Shown: in pieces, positions 11,641 through 14,188 of the stretch
Layout: each line of letters opens with the position of its first letter
Position numbering within the stretch: position 1 is the first letter of the stretch
Source of the DNA: Chitinophagales bacterium
GTDB lineage: Bacteria > Bacteroidota > Bacteroidia > Chitinophagales > CAIOSU01
Reading direction: 5' to 3'
DNA length: 48,603 nt
NCBI GenBank assembly: GCA_040877935.1
Contig: JBBDNB010000058.1
Coordinates: 1 to 48,603, forward strand
The notes under the pieces: generated by a model
The model's input: only the letters and a program-made list of their open reading frames with translations
Told to the model about the DNA's origin: nothing
Database searches by the model: none
Program-made: the position numbers and the translations under genes

Positions 11641-12522
11641 ATGAGTCAATATTCGATAAAAGATTTAGAATTGCTTACCGGCATTAAATCCCATACCTTG
11701 CGAATATGGGAAAGCCGCTATAATGTCATTACTCCAAAACGCACCAAAACAAACATTCGCTACTACCTGGATGAAGACCTCAGAAAAATCCTCAATGTAG
11801 CCCACTTAAATAAACTTGGTTATAAGATTTCTAAAATTGCCAAACTTTCTGAGGAGGAACGAAATGAACTGGTTCTTGAAAACAGTGTAGATTGCGAACA
11901 GATTGAAGGTCAGATTCAATGTCTTACAAAAGCAATGCTCAACTATGACGAGCAAGAATTCAATCATTTGCTGGCGAATGCTACATTGAAAATGGGTTTT
12001 GAAAGATGTATGCTTGAAATTGCGTATCCCTTTCTGGAAAAAATCGGAAAATTATGGCAGGCATCTTCTATTTGCGTGGCTCAGGAGCATTTTGTAAGTA
12101 ATTTATTGCGGCAAAAAATCATTGTTGCCACTGACGGACAAATGCTAAAAGATCCGGAAAACTCAAAGCGTGCAATACTCTTTTGTCCACCCGGAGAAAT
12201 ACACGAGCTCAATTTACTTTTTGTCAATTATATACTGCGCATACGCAATATTCACACTTTATACCTGGGTACAGATATGCCCCTTTGCGATCTCTCTAAT
12301 GTTAAGGCACATTACAAGCCACATTGTTTTGTTATGGCAATGACCGCAGGTTATGCTCAAAAAAATCAAAGTGCACTTAACGAACAATTAAAAATTCAAC
12401 TAGGAGATACTCCGGGTTTTTTAATTGGCAGCCTTTGCAATAAAAAATCAGAATGGCATAAAAACATTCACCTCGTTAAAAACATCAAAGAGCTCGAAAA
12501 GCAGCTAAAATCATTAGTTTAA
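11641..12522 (+). CDS. MerR-family regulator with B12-binding-type domain (CarH/LitR-like)
   Basis: A 293-residue protein. Residues 1-70 form a MerR winged-helix DNA-binding domain (YSIKDLELLTGIKSHTLRIW, then ESRYNVITPKR). Residues 85-155 form a helical bundle with Trp139 and, eleven residues later, the Glu149-His150 pair, matching the W-x9-EH motif of the CarH cobalamin cap domain. Residues 177-293 form a Rossmann domain with PPGEIHEL, where His188 is at the place of the lower axial cobalt ligand. In CarH/LitR, adenosylcobalamin-dependent tetramers repress carotenoid and light-stress genes in the dark and fall apart in light. Position 140, next to the Trp, is Gln where Thermus CarH has a His that binds cobalt after illumination. 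It is followed by an ECF sigma factor. Light sensing is inferred. Confidence 0.85.
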   Translation: MSQYSIKDLELLTGIKSHTLRIWESRYNVITPKRTKTNIRYYLDEDLRKILNVAHLNKLGYKISKIAKLSEEERNELVLENSVDCEQIEGQIQCLTKAMLNYDEQEFNHLLANATLKMGFERCMLEIAYPFLEKIGKLWQASSICVAQEHFVSNLLRQKIIVATDGQMLKDPENSKRAILFCPPGEIHELNLLFVNYILRIRNIHTLYLGTDMPLCDLSNVKAHYKPHCFVMAMTAGYAQKNQSALNEQLKIQLGDTPGFLIGSLCNKKSEWHKNIHLVKNIKELEKQLKSLV

Positions 12523-12555
12523 CTTTGTTTAACTATTTTAAATAAAAAGTTAAAC
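12517..12555. promoter_or_regulatory. Candidate operator: GTTTAAC repeats upstream of ECF sigma gene
   Basis: GTTTAAC occurs at 12517-12523 and again at 12527-12533, exactly one 10-bp period apart. The reverse complement GTTAAAC lies at 12549-12555, forming an inverted repeat with the second copy over a 15-nt spacer. The block ends 6 nt before the -33 element of the sigma-gene promoter. Thermus CarH is known to bind roughly 11-bp direct repeats, so helical phasing of these sites fits the neighbouring regulator. Binding itself is inferred. Confidence 0.5.
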
Positions 12556-12561
12556 ATTTTA

Positions 12562-12592
12562 TTGTTTTTTGTCCCTGTAATTCCTATATTTG
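12562..12592 (+). promoter_or_regulatory. Bacteroidota-type promoter for ECF sigma gene
   Basis: TTG at 12562-12564, a 20-nt spacer, and TATATTTG at 12585-12592 match the Bacteroidota housekeeping consensus (TTTG or TTG, about 19-21 nt, TAnnTTTG). The ATG follows 23 nt after the -7 box. Confidence 0.6.
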
Positions 12593-12615
12593 AATCAAAC
12601 AAAAAATAATTGATC

Positions 12616-13137
12616 ATGGCTGTTATGAATTTCACCGATAAAGTTGTCGATTACACAAATAACCTTTTGCCATTTGCGGTAAATCTCACAAAAGACAAAG
12701 AATCTGCACATGACTTATTGCAGGAAACTGTTTACAGAGCAATTACAAATGAAGATAAATACCAGAGTGGCACCAACCTCAAAGCGTGGTTGTTTACCAT
12801 TATGAGAAATATTTTCATCAATAACTACCGCAAAAACCAAAAGCGCAATACGCTGATTGACACGACTGAAAACCTCTATTTTATTAACAATGCAGGCACG
12901 GTAATCGAAAATGAATCTTCTACCAATTTTGTAATGGAAGATTTAATGCGCGCTGTAAATAATCTAAGTGATGATTTCAAAATTCCTTTCGTAATGCATT
13001 ATGAAGGGTTTAAATATCACGAAATTGCAGACAAATTAAACTTGCCACTGGGAACAGTTAAAAGTCGCATTTTCTTTGCCCGTAAAGAATTGAAGTCAAA
13101 ACTAAAACCATACGACAGAAATAAATACAACCGCTAA
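12616..13137 (+). CDS. ECF-type RNA polymerase sigma factor
   Basis: A 173-residue sigma-70-family factor with only regions 2 and 4. Region 2 includes DLLQETVYRAITNEDKY and LKAWLFTIMRNIFINNYRK; region 4 includes LSDDFKIPFVMHYEGFKYHEIADKLNLPLGTVKSRIFFARKEL (segments), a standard helix-turn-helix. The ATG at 12616 is preferred to an in-frame TTG at 12610, given its position after the promoter. Located directly downstream of the CarH-like MerR gene, with repeated sites before its promoter, it is probably the direct target of that regulator, as LitR/LitS-type pairs are in other bacteria. No carotenoid genes are present in the window, so its regulon would be elsewhere. No anti-sigma factor gene is adjacent. 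Confidence 0.92.
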   Translation: MAVMNFTDKVVDYTNNLLPFAVNLTKDKESAHDLLQETVYRAITNEDKYQSGTNLKAWLFTIMRNIFINNYRKNQKRNTLIDTTENLYFINNAGTVIENESSTNFVMEDLMRAVNNLSDDFKIPFVMHYEGFKYHEIADKLNLPLGTVKSRIFFARKELKSKLKPYDRNKYNR

Positions 13138-13222: not shown

Positions 13223-13471
13223 TTAATTTTTATGGTTAAGTATTGCGGTAAGCTTACTGAAATTAAGTATGCGATCAATACTTTTCTGAGTCACATCCTG
13301 CCCAGTATTAGCAAAATTATCAAGCACATTTTTTGATTCTTCCATTTGAACATATTTTTCCTTCAAAAAGGGATTTCTCAAAAAAGCTTCTTCAATAGCT
13401 TGATTTTCAGTGGGCTCTGTCTCATTATACAGCTTTTTGACCAAATAATCATATGTAGATAATTCTTGCAT
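13223..13471 (-). CDS. Conserved small protein downstream of RpoE-like sigma factor
   Basis: An 82-residue soluble, helix-rich protein beginning MQELSTYDYLVKKLYNE, with an acidic TEPTENQAIEEA segment and a basic C-terminus. An upstream ATG at 13519 would add 16 residues with no sign of conservation, so the ATG at 13471 is chosen. Small proteins with this opening are, to my knowledge, often found beside RpoE-like sigma factors in Bacteroidota. It has no membrane helix and no recognisable anti-sigma zinc motif, so a regulatory role is open. A minus-strand terminator lies between it and the sigma gene. Confidence 0.65.
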   Translation of the reverse strand: MQELSTYDYLVKKLYNETEPTENQAIEEAFLRNPFLKEKYVQMEESKNVLDNFANTGQDVTQKSIDRILNFSKLTAILNHKN

Positions 13472-13540
13472 TTTGGCTCTTTTTTTAATGAATGAAAGAC
13501 AAGCTACTAACGCAAGCATTTCTTAATTATTTTACAAACA

Positions 13541-13606: not shown

Positions 13607-14188
13607 TTACAATTGAATGTGATTTTCTTCAATGAATTTGCGCATATTAATAAGCGCATAGCGCATACGTCCAAGTGCTGTATTGATACTTACACCAGTG
13701 TTTTCTGATATTTCTTTAAAGCTCAAACCTGCATAATGCCGCATAATCACCACTTCTTTTTGCTCTTCAGGCAATTCCTGCAGAATTTTCCTGACTTTAT
13801 CATGCGTCTCACCGGTAGTGATAATTTCTTCAGCATTGGCGTCATCCAATTTGAGCACATCGAAAATATCAAACTCATCAGAGCCGCTGAACTTTGGCGC
13901 TCTTTTGGATTTTCTGAAATGATCAACACATAAATTATGTGCTATTCTCAAAACCCAGGGCAGAAATTTTCCTTCTTCCTTATAATTTCCTGAACGCAAG
14001 GTCTTGATAACTTTTATAAAAGTGTCCTGGAAAATATCATTGGCCAGATTAGTATCTTTCACAAAAATTACGATGGCACCGAAAATTCGGTTTCTATGTC
14101 GATTGATCAATGTTTCTAATGCCGATTCGTTTCCGTTGAGGTAATCTTTTACCAAAACCTGATCTGTTAATTCTTTCTTCATTCTCAT
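13607..14188 (-). CDS. RpoE-like ECF sigma factor
   Basis: A 193-residue ECF sigma factor. Region 2 contains DTNLANDIFQDTFIKVIKTL and FLPWVLRIAHNLCVDHFRK; region 4 contains LPEEQKEVVIMRHYAGLSFKEIS and TGVSINTALGRMRYAL. It differs clearly from the other sigma factor in the window and resembles the widely conserved RpoE-type sigma factor of Bacteroidota. It is divergent from uvrA across a 171-bp intergenic region. No anti-sigma membrane protein follows; instead there is a terminator and then a small soluble protein. The start could be two residues further in (second Met). Confidence 0.92.
   Translation of the reverse strand: MRMKKELTDQVLVKDYLNGNESALETLINRHRNRIFGAIVIFVKDTNLANDIFQDTFIKVIKTLRSGNYKEEGKFLPWVLRIAHNLCVDHFRKSKRAPKFSGSDEFDIFDVLKLDDANAEEIITTGETHDKVRKILQELPEEQKEVVIMRHYAGLSFKEISENTGVSINTALGRMRYALINMRKFIEENHIQL

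Follow-up and report, generated by a model that had tools for sequence, protein, structure and literature searches.

A CarH-like MerR regulator, an ECF sigma factor and a conserved palindrome: a candidate light-responsive pair in Bacteroidota

In the genome of a Chitinophagales bacterium, a gene for a MerR-family regulator with a cobalamin domain is followed on the same strand by a gene for an ECF sigma factor. The pair lies in a stretch of 48,603 nucleotides, analyzed at its full length and called the window here (GCA_040877935.1, contig JBBDNB010000058.1). Two questions arise at this locus: do the two genes form a cobalamin-dependent light switch, and through which DNA element would the regulator act on its neighbor? 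The features on which the answer depends are:

11641..12522, plus strand: MerR-family regulator with a CarH-like cobalamin domain, 293 aa (Pfam, nearest solved sequences, fold, residues)
12517..12523, plus strand: extra GTTTAAC that includes the merR stop codon TAA (12520-12522); at this offset in 1/64 loci
12526..12556, no strand: putative palindromic operator TGTTTAAC-N15-GTTAAACA; unique exact arrangement in the genome, similar pair in 64/64 ECF upstream regions
12562..12592, plus strand: likely ECF promoter (TTG at 12562-12564, 20 bp, TATATTTG at 12585-12592)
12616..13137, plus strand: ECF sigma factor, 173 aa (Pfam sigma-70 regions 2 and 4)

The regulator and its predicted cobalamin site

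The regulator matches the Pfam families MerR_1 (57.2 bits) and B12-binding_2 (39.1 bits), both above cut-off, and combines the DNA-binding MerR-type domain with the four-helix B12-binding domain that characterize CarH; PF02310, present in 8/13 aligned relatives, was not found in it. Its best NCBIfam match is the CarH model, at 98.8 bits against an equivalog cut-off of 400, and its nearest solved sequence is T. thermophilus CarH. An AlphaFold2 model built on a 13-sequence alignment (mean pLDDT 83.4, pTM 0.66) was compared with solved structures using Foldseek: T. thermophilus CarH accounts for all 50 of the matches listed (best E 2.5e-15), with a target-length TM of up to 0.84 to cobalamin-domain structures. 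Full-length superposition of the model on these matches is poor (rmsd about 9-15), which may stem from a free domain orientation in the prediction.

A reading of the window from sequence alone had taken the gene product for a CarH/LitR-like MerR protein with Trp139, Glu149-His150 and His188, and the ORF at 11641-12522 indeed carries all four residues. They are identical in 110/110 homologues, which complete the Wx9EH motif (W139, E149, H150) throughout. Two sources supplied these homologues: 60 genomes (the own genome and others of its family and order) yielded 30 loci, and a further 80 named loci are the best 80 of at least 590 relatives. Clustered at 90% identity, the 110 form 98 groups. EH is contained in one of the two search patterns behind the 80 named loci, so part of its conservation there is selection; the 30 other loci were chosen otherwise. 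The published light-response signature of cobalamin photoreceptors, derived with SignatureFinder (GxxW, EH, GxxH, GxxxP; available text of PMC11796333), is complete in the regulator at G136-W139, E149-H150, G185-H188 and G210-P214.

Across the 110 homologues, there are two departures from CarH: the bis-His residue is missing and the nucleotide-tail motif is altered. At the bis-His position, the regulator has Gln140, and His occurs in 0/110 homologues. In T. thermophilus CarH, exposure to light turns the His after the Trp into a second His ligand, a residue not required of all CarH proteins. The H132A variant of that protein is reported as unable to monomerise; the same excerpted source describes Arg and Gln at this position in other light-responsive proteins (PMC11796333), so a light response without that His is possible. 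The second CarH signature, D/ExHx2G/P-x41-SxT/V-x22-27-GG in the accessible portion of PMC9304148, is incomplete when the regulator is aligned with the 110 homologues: E186, H188, T235 and G263 are kept, and N191, A233 and S264 depart. Position 191, Asn in the regulator, is G in 35/110 homologues and P in 4/110, while the Ser of SxT (position 233) is kept in 10/110 and the second Gly of GG (position 264) in 4/110. Because the signature is incomplete by that definition, the regulator is named here CarH-like and not CarH. In our best reading, the protein belongs with the LitR/CarH cobalamin photoreceptors as their Bacteroidota variant.

Elsewhere in the genome, a 350-aa protein (L171:6382-7434, G000:C51) weakly matches the regulator's cobalamin part (E 5e-9, 22% identity), and the ORFs near it look sensor- and response-regulator-like by eye.

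The ECF gene and the palindrome before it

The ECF reading frame starts with an ATG at 12616, 93 bp past merR. Pfam domains in both ORFs (11641-12522 and 12616-13137) bear out the pairing of a MerR gene with an ECF sigma gene proposed from the sequence. The arrangement recurs: an ECF homologue adjoins merR in 20/30 order-level loci and lies within 2.5 kb of it in 44/80 named loci (best 80 of at least 590 relatives). The TTG at 12562-12564 and TATATTTG would be the -33 and -7 elements of what we take to be the Bacteroidota consensus, and the proposal of a sigma-gene promoter at 12562-12592 is plausible on this spacing of TTG, 20 bp and TATATTTG. A second, different ECF sigma gene lies at 13607-14188 on the minus strand, followed by a 98-aa ORF (13223-13519, minus strand) for which Pfam and NCBIfam gave no match at 0.001; the 98-aa protein could be a partner of the second sigma factor.

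The sequence-only reading had placed a phased operator directly upstream of the promoter, made of two GTTTAAC copies 10 bp apart and one inverted copy. All three copies exist (12517-12523 and 12527-12533; inverted, 12549-12555), and the CarH operators described so far are built from 11-bp direct repeats (excerpt of PMC9304148). Yet the phasing is peculiar to this locus: of 64 loci, one alone, that of the window, has a further GTTTAAC in the same orientation 10 bp ahead of the left arm, and there the merR stop codon lies inside the first copy, which is probably incidental. GTTTAAC shows no excess in the window (3 found against 7.3 expected), and a search for GTTTAAC-N3-GTTTAAC with up to 3 mismatches returned 8 places against 6.8 expected, the window copy being the only exact one. 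An operator of two direct copies is therefore very improbable. The conserved unit is instead the inverted repeat, found in 64/64 loci.

As an exact match, this inverted pair stands alone: TGTTTAA-N12..19-TTAAACA occurs nowhere else in the 4.03 Mb genome, and the reversed pattern, searched as a control, gave 0; with independent bases at the composition of the window, 0.012 perfect copies with a spacer of 13-15 are expected in a genome of such size. For the 44 named loci whose ECF match lies within 2.5 kb of merR (from the best 80 of at least 590), the 300 bp before that match were searched. The best inverted pair had at most 2 mismatches of 16 in 40/44 loci, against 17/1,320 shuffles, and its spacer was 14 or 15 in 38/44 loci, with 8-22 allowed. 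Together with 20 order-level loci, the window included, these make up the 64 loci (58 clusters at 90% protein identity), and in all of them an inverted pair precedes the ECF gene, its 8-mers separated by 13-15 bp and with at most 3 mismatches. The TnnACA core of CarH repeats is present in both arms, which are inverted and 22-23 bp apart; this suggests that CarH-type base recognition is probably kept and the arrangement of half-sites inverted. A second palindrome 43-46 bp away (up to 4 mismatches) is present in 15/64 loci, against 0-4/64 at eleven control distances; the window locus has none at this distance (best, 8 mismatches).

In the window, TATATTTG starts 28 bp after the palindrome end; a -7-like box was found in the searched stretch after the palindrome in 30 of 64 loci, at 27-29 bp in 29/30, and the palindrome overlaps a -7-like box in 32/64 loci, both box patterns being loose in AT-rich DNA and without a shuffle control of their own.

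We considered whether the palindrome merely follows the ECF gene. No ECF match lies nearby in 46/110 merR loci, and 6 of these 46 have a palindrome upstream of merR (up to 2 mismatches; 4/920 shuffles), two of the six, L007 and L201, being the same locus; 2 have it downstream (0/920 shuffles), and 39/46 have it on neither side at up to 2 mismatches. The palindrome is therefore not tied to the ECF gene alone. Whole-genome pattern counts gave 76 matches against 37 for the control in 39 genomes with merR, and 10 against 9 in 20 genomes without it.

In the own genome, allowing up to 2 mismatches gives 65 forward matches with 16 bases between the 7-mers and 55 with 17, where the reversed-pattern control gives 74 and 99; with matches not above the control, these counts support no operator other than the window site. 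Of the matches listed, five with one mismatch were viewed: one lies before sufB, one before an EtfB-like gene and three inside reading frames. The site directly before the profile-confirmed sufB (L268:1501-1530, G000:C7:34045-34074) contains a -7-like box, but sites of this kind do not exceed the control genome-wide. In another genome (G012, 75% complete), which has no regulator homologue at E 1e-20, five palindromes were seen (L074:2730-2759, L072, L073), one of them preceding a folE-like/SDR pair; its regulator may lie in the missing part of the genome or be more distant. Three palindrome-like matches at G057:C87:876-1096, nearly identical and spaced by about 95 bp, are probably a tandem repeat rather than operators.

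Carotenoid genes in relatives and in the same genome

A frequent layout in relatives is crtZ-merR-[palindrome]-ECF-crtI-crtB-lycopene cyclase. Near merR in the 80 named loci (best 80 of at least 590), some of which end early at contig ends, we counted ECF in 46, crtZ in 40, crtI in 34, crtB in 33 and a lycopene cyclase domain in 22. Gene calls at these loci are tblastn matches to proteins of the own genome and relatives; example queries were profile-confirmed for CrtI, SQS_PSY, lycopene cyclase and FolE, while the CrtZ-like query matched nothing in Pfam (1e-5) or NCBIfam (1e-20), and its name is our reading. PF00494 genes occur in 37/40 genomes with merR and in 9/20 without it (p 1e-4), a family that also covers squalene synthases and with one match that is a fragment.

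Palindromes also occur away from the pair. Profiles confirm the gene that follows as a crtI-type gene at L067, a folE/desaturase pair at L071 and a second ECF gene at L084. Identified by likeness are crtI-type genes after the palindromes at L068, L179 and L181, a folE/desaturase pair at L069, folE-SDR at L074 and second ECF genes at L082 and L085. Of 20 stretches fetched away from the pair, 8 show the crtI, folE or second-ECF theme and 12 do not; the palindromes in these 12 may be there by chance. At two loci, L101 (G034) and L106 (G058), DUF1365, cyclopropane-fatty-acid-synthase-type and amine-oxidase-like genes are found no more than about 7 kb from the pair, DUF1365 and the synthase type being profile-matched in L101 only. 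Such a gene set is known from light and singlet-oxygen responses elsewhere.

On contig C22, the own genome carries crtI along with a member of the phytoene/squalene synthase family and a CrtZ-like gene; a photolyase-family gene is found on C18, and C9 encodes a PduO-type adenosyltransferase. From the lack of carotenoid genes near the pair, a regulon other than the classical one had been suggested. The data lend this no support: in relatives the pair is linked to crtI-crtB, and a crtI/phytoene synthase cluster is present here on another contig. No palindrome with up to 3 mismatches was found in the 20 kb around the own crt genes; if the pair still governs carotenoids in this organism, it would do so via the sigma factor. 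No ECF promoter motif was seen by eye upstream of the crt, phr and folE genes of the own genome and relatives.

A proposed relay, its rivals and known systems

We propose, with a probability of roughly 0.6, that the locus encodes a Bacteroidota variant of the LitR/CarH-to-ECF relay. In the dark, the regulator loaded with adenosylcobalamin (AdoCbl) would bind the palindrome at 12526-12556, which lies shortly before the predicted -33 element of the ECF gene, and keep this gene from being transcribed. Light would break the Co-C bond, and the ensuing change in shape or oligomeric state would take the regulator off the DNA. The ECF sigma factor would then be made and would turn on photoprotection genes, expected to include the unlinked crtI/phytoene synthase cluster. 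This reading builds on the domains, residues and predicted fold of the regulator, the conserved gene pair, the palindrome at the promoter of the adjoining ECF gene, the carotenoid linkage in relatives, and the adenosyltransferase and crt genes of the own genome. From these we infer that the regulator binds cobalamin and the palindrome, that it responds to light and represses instead of activating, and what the sigma factor targets. Of the earlier proposal of a light- or B12-controlled switch on the ECF gene, a cobalamin-type regulator working on that gene through a site at its promoter is supported by homology, the recurring gene pair and the phylogenetic footprint, and the light input would follow from the family signature and the carotenoid linkage. 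The MerR and ECF genes are well supported as a regulatory pair; as a light switch, the pair is a candidate. Several findings weigh against the relay: the CarH score below cut-off, the incomplete second CarH signature, the missing PF02310 match, Gln at the bis-His position, the non-11-bp geometry, the merR loci without an ECF match nearby, the own crt region free of palindromes, the failure to find an ECF promoter motif by eye, and the palindrome's place upstream of -33, which would also suit an activator.

The same parts could work with the opposite sign, the regulator activating the ECF promoter in light from its site just upstream of -33. The position of the palindrome in the window and the constant distance to the -7-like box in 29/30 such loci fit this, as does the description of light-activated Streptomyces LitR as promoting litS transcription (available text of PMC12705666). 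The same text, however, notes that added B12 lowers dark expression in Streptomyces and mentions repressor action; CarH proteins are described as repressors in the excerpts of PMC9304148 and PMC6739363, and the overlap of palindrome and -7-like box in 32/64 loci, found with a loose pattern lacking its own control, suits repression. We regard activation as unlikely. Somewhat less likely still is that the regulator responds not to light but to how much adenosylcobalamin is available, or to some other ligand or partner, in the manner of CarA or class II LitR and maybe without light-sensitive B12. The altered nucleotide-tail motif and missing bis-His residue would agree with such a role, and class II LitR, described as presumably not binding B12, acts together with a LOV protein as separate photoreceptor (PMC9758184, as excerpted). 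Against it stand the Wx9EH motif and axial His in 110/110 homologues (EH being in one search pattern for 80 of them), the Trp of that motif that CarA lacks according to the accessible part of PMC9304148, and the carotenoid linkage in relatives.

A broader form of the relay, which we advance tentatively and with the odds leaning somewhat against it, is a Bacteroidota-wide module: a cobalamin photoreceptor without the bis-His residue and with a rebuilt nucleotide-tail pocket would bind palindromes (half-sites 22-23 bp apart, sometimes doubled at about 44 bp) and gate an ECF sigma factor, with photochemistry, cobamide choice and head-to-head DNA binding unlike those of characterized CarH.

The LitR-to-litS relay and B12-domain MerR genes beside carotenoid genes are known; the ECF partner in Bacteroidota and the palindrome are recognized in none of the literature searched, which covered few subscription journals and in which we recognized no description of a Bacteroidota MerR/ECF light pair. 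In the Bacteroidota member Chryseobacterium lacus, carotenoid production is reported to be light-induced, and its authors state in the available text that they found no known car or lit regulator (PMC7064467). For the many Bacteroidota that carry it, the MerR/ECF pair offers a candidate light regulator that can be tested, together with an exact putative operator sequence, and could explain how they turn on sun protection. Natural homologues lacking the bis-His residue bear on how cobalamin photoreceptors work, and the inverted operator geometry might serve optogenetics.

Among known systems, MliR of Bizionia, a MerR-like iron regulator, seems unrelated from the accessible part of PMC9478572. 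Counterparts are found in Bacteroidota carotenoid loci: flavobacterium GF1 has a B12-domain MerR gene beside zeaxanthin genes, as here in relatives, with neither an ECF partner nor an operator mentioned (excerpt of PMC6974559), and Nonlabens has a MerR gene beside myxol genes (excerpt of PMC11855829). CtMerR and the other SignatureFinder cobalamin photoreceptors share the GxxW, EH, GxxH, GxxxP signature, and CtMerR (Arg) and SasPcob (Gln) likewise have no His at the bis-His position (PMC11796333, in part). With the class I LitR/CarH proteins, namely CarH of T. thermophilus, Bacillus megaterium and myxobacteria, which act as dark repressors (PMC6739363, in part), the regulator shares the MerR DNA-binding domain, the cobalamin-domain fold, Wx9EH, the lower axial His and a TnnACA core per half-site. 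It differs from them in its target, an ECF gene, in lacking the His after the Trp, in the loss of the Ser of SxT and the second Gly of GG, and in Asn for G/P after ExHx2; CarH operators are tandem 11-bp direct repeats with TnnACA, whereas the putative half-sites here are inverted. A close parallel for the circuit is LitR-LitS of Streptomyces, where LitR, a cobalamin MerR regulator, is established as acting on litS and the sigma factor LitS in turn serves the crtE promoter (PMC12705666, in part); in the present case, the proteins and promoter are of the Bacteroidota type, the site is palindromic, and the crt genes lie on another contig.
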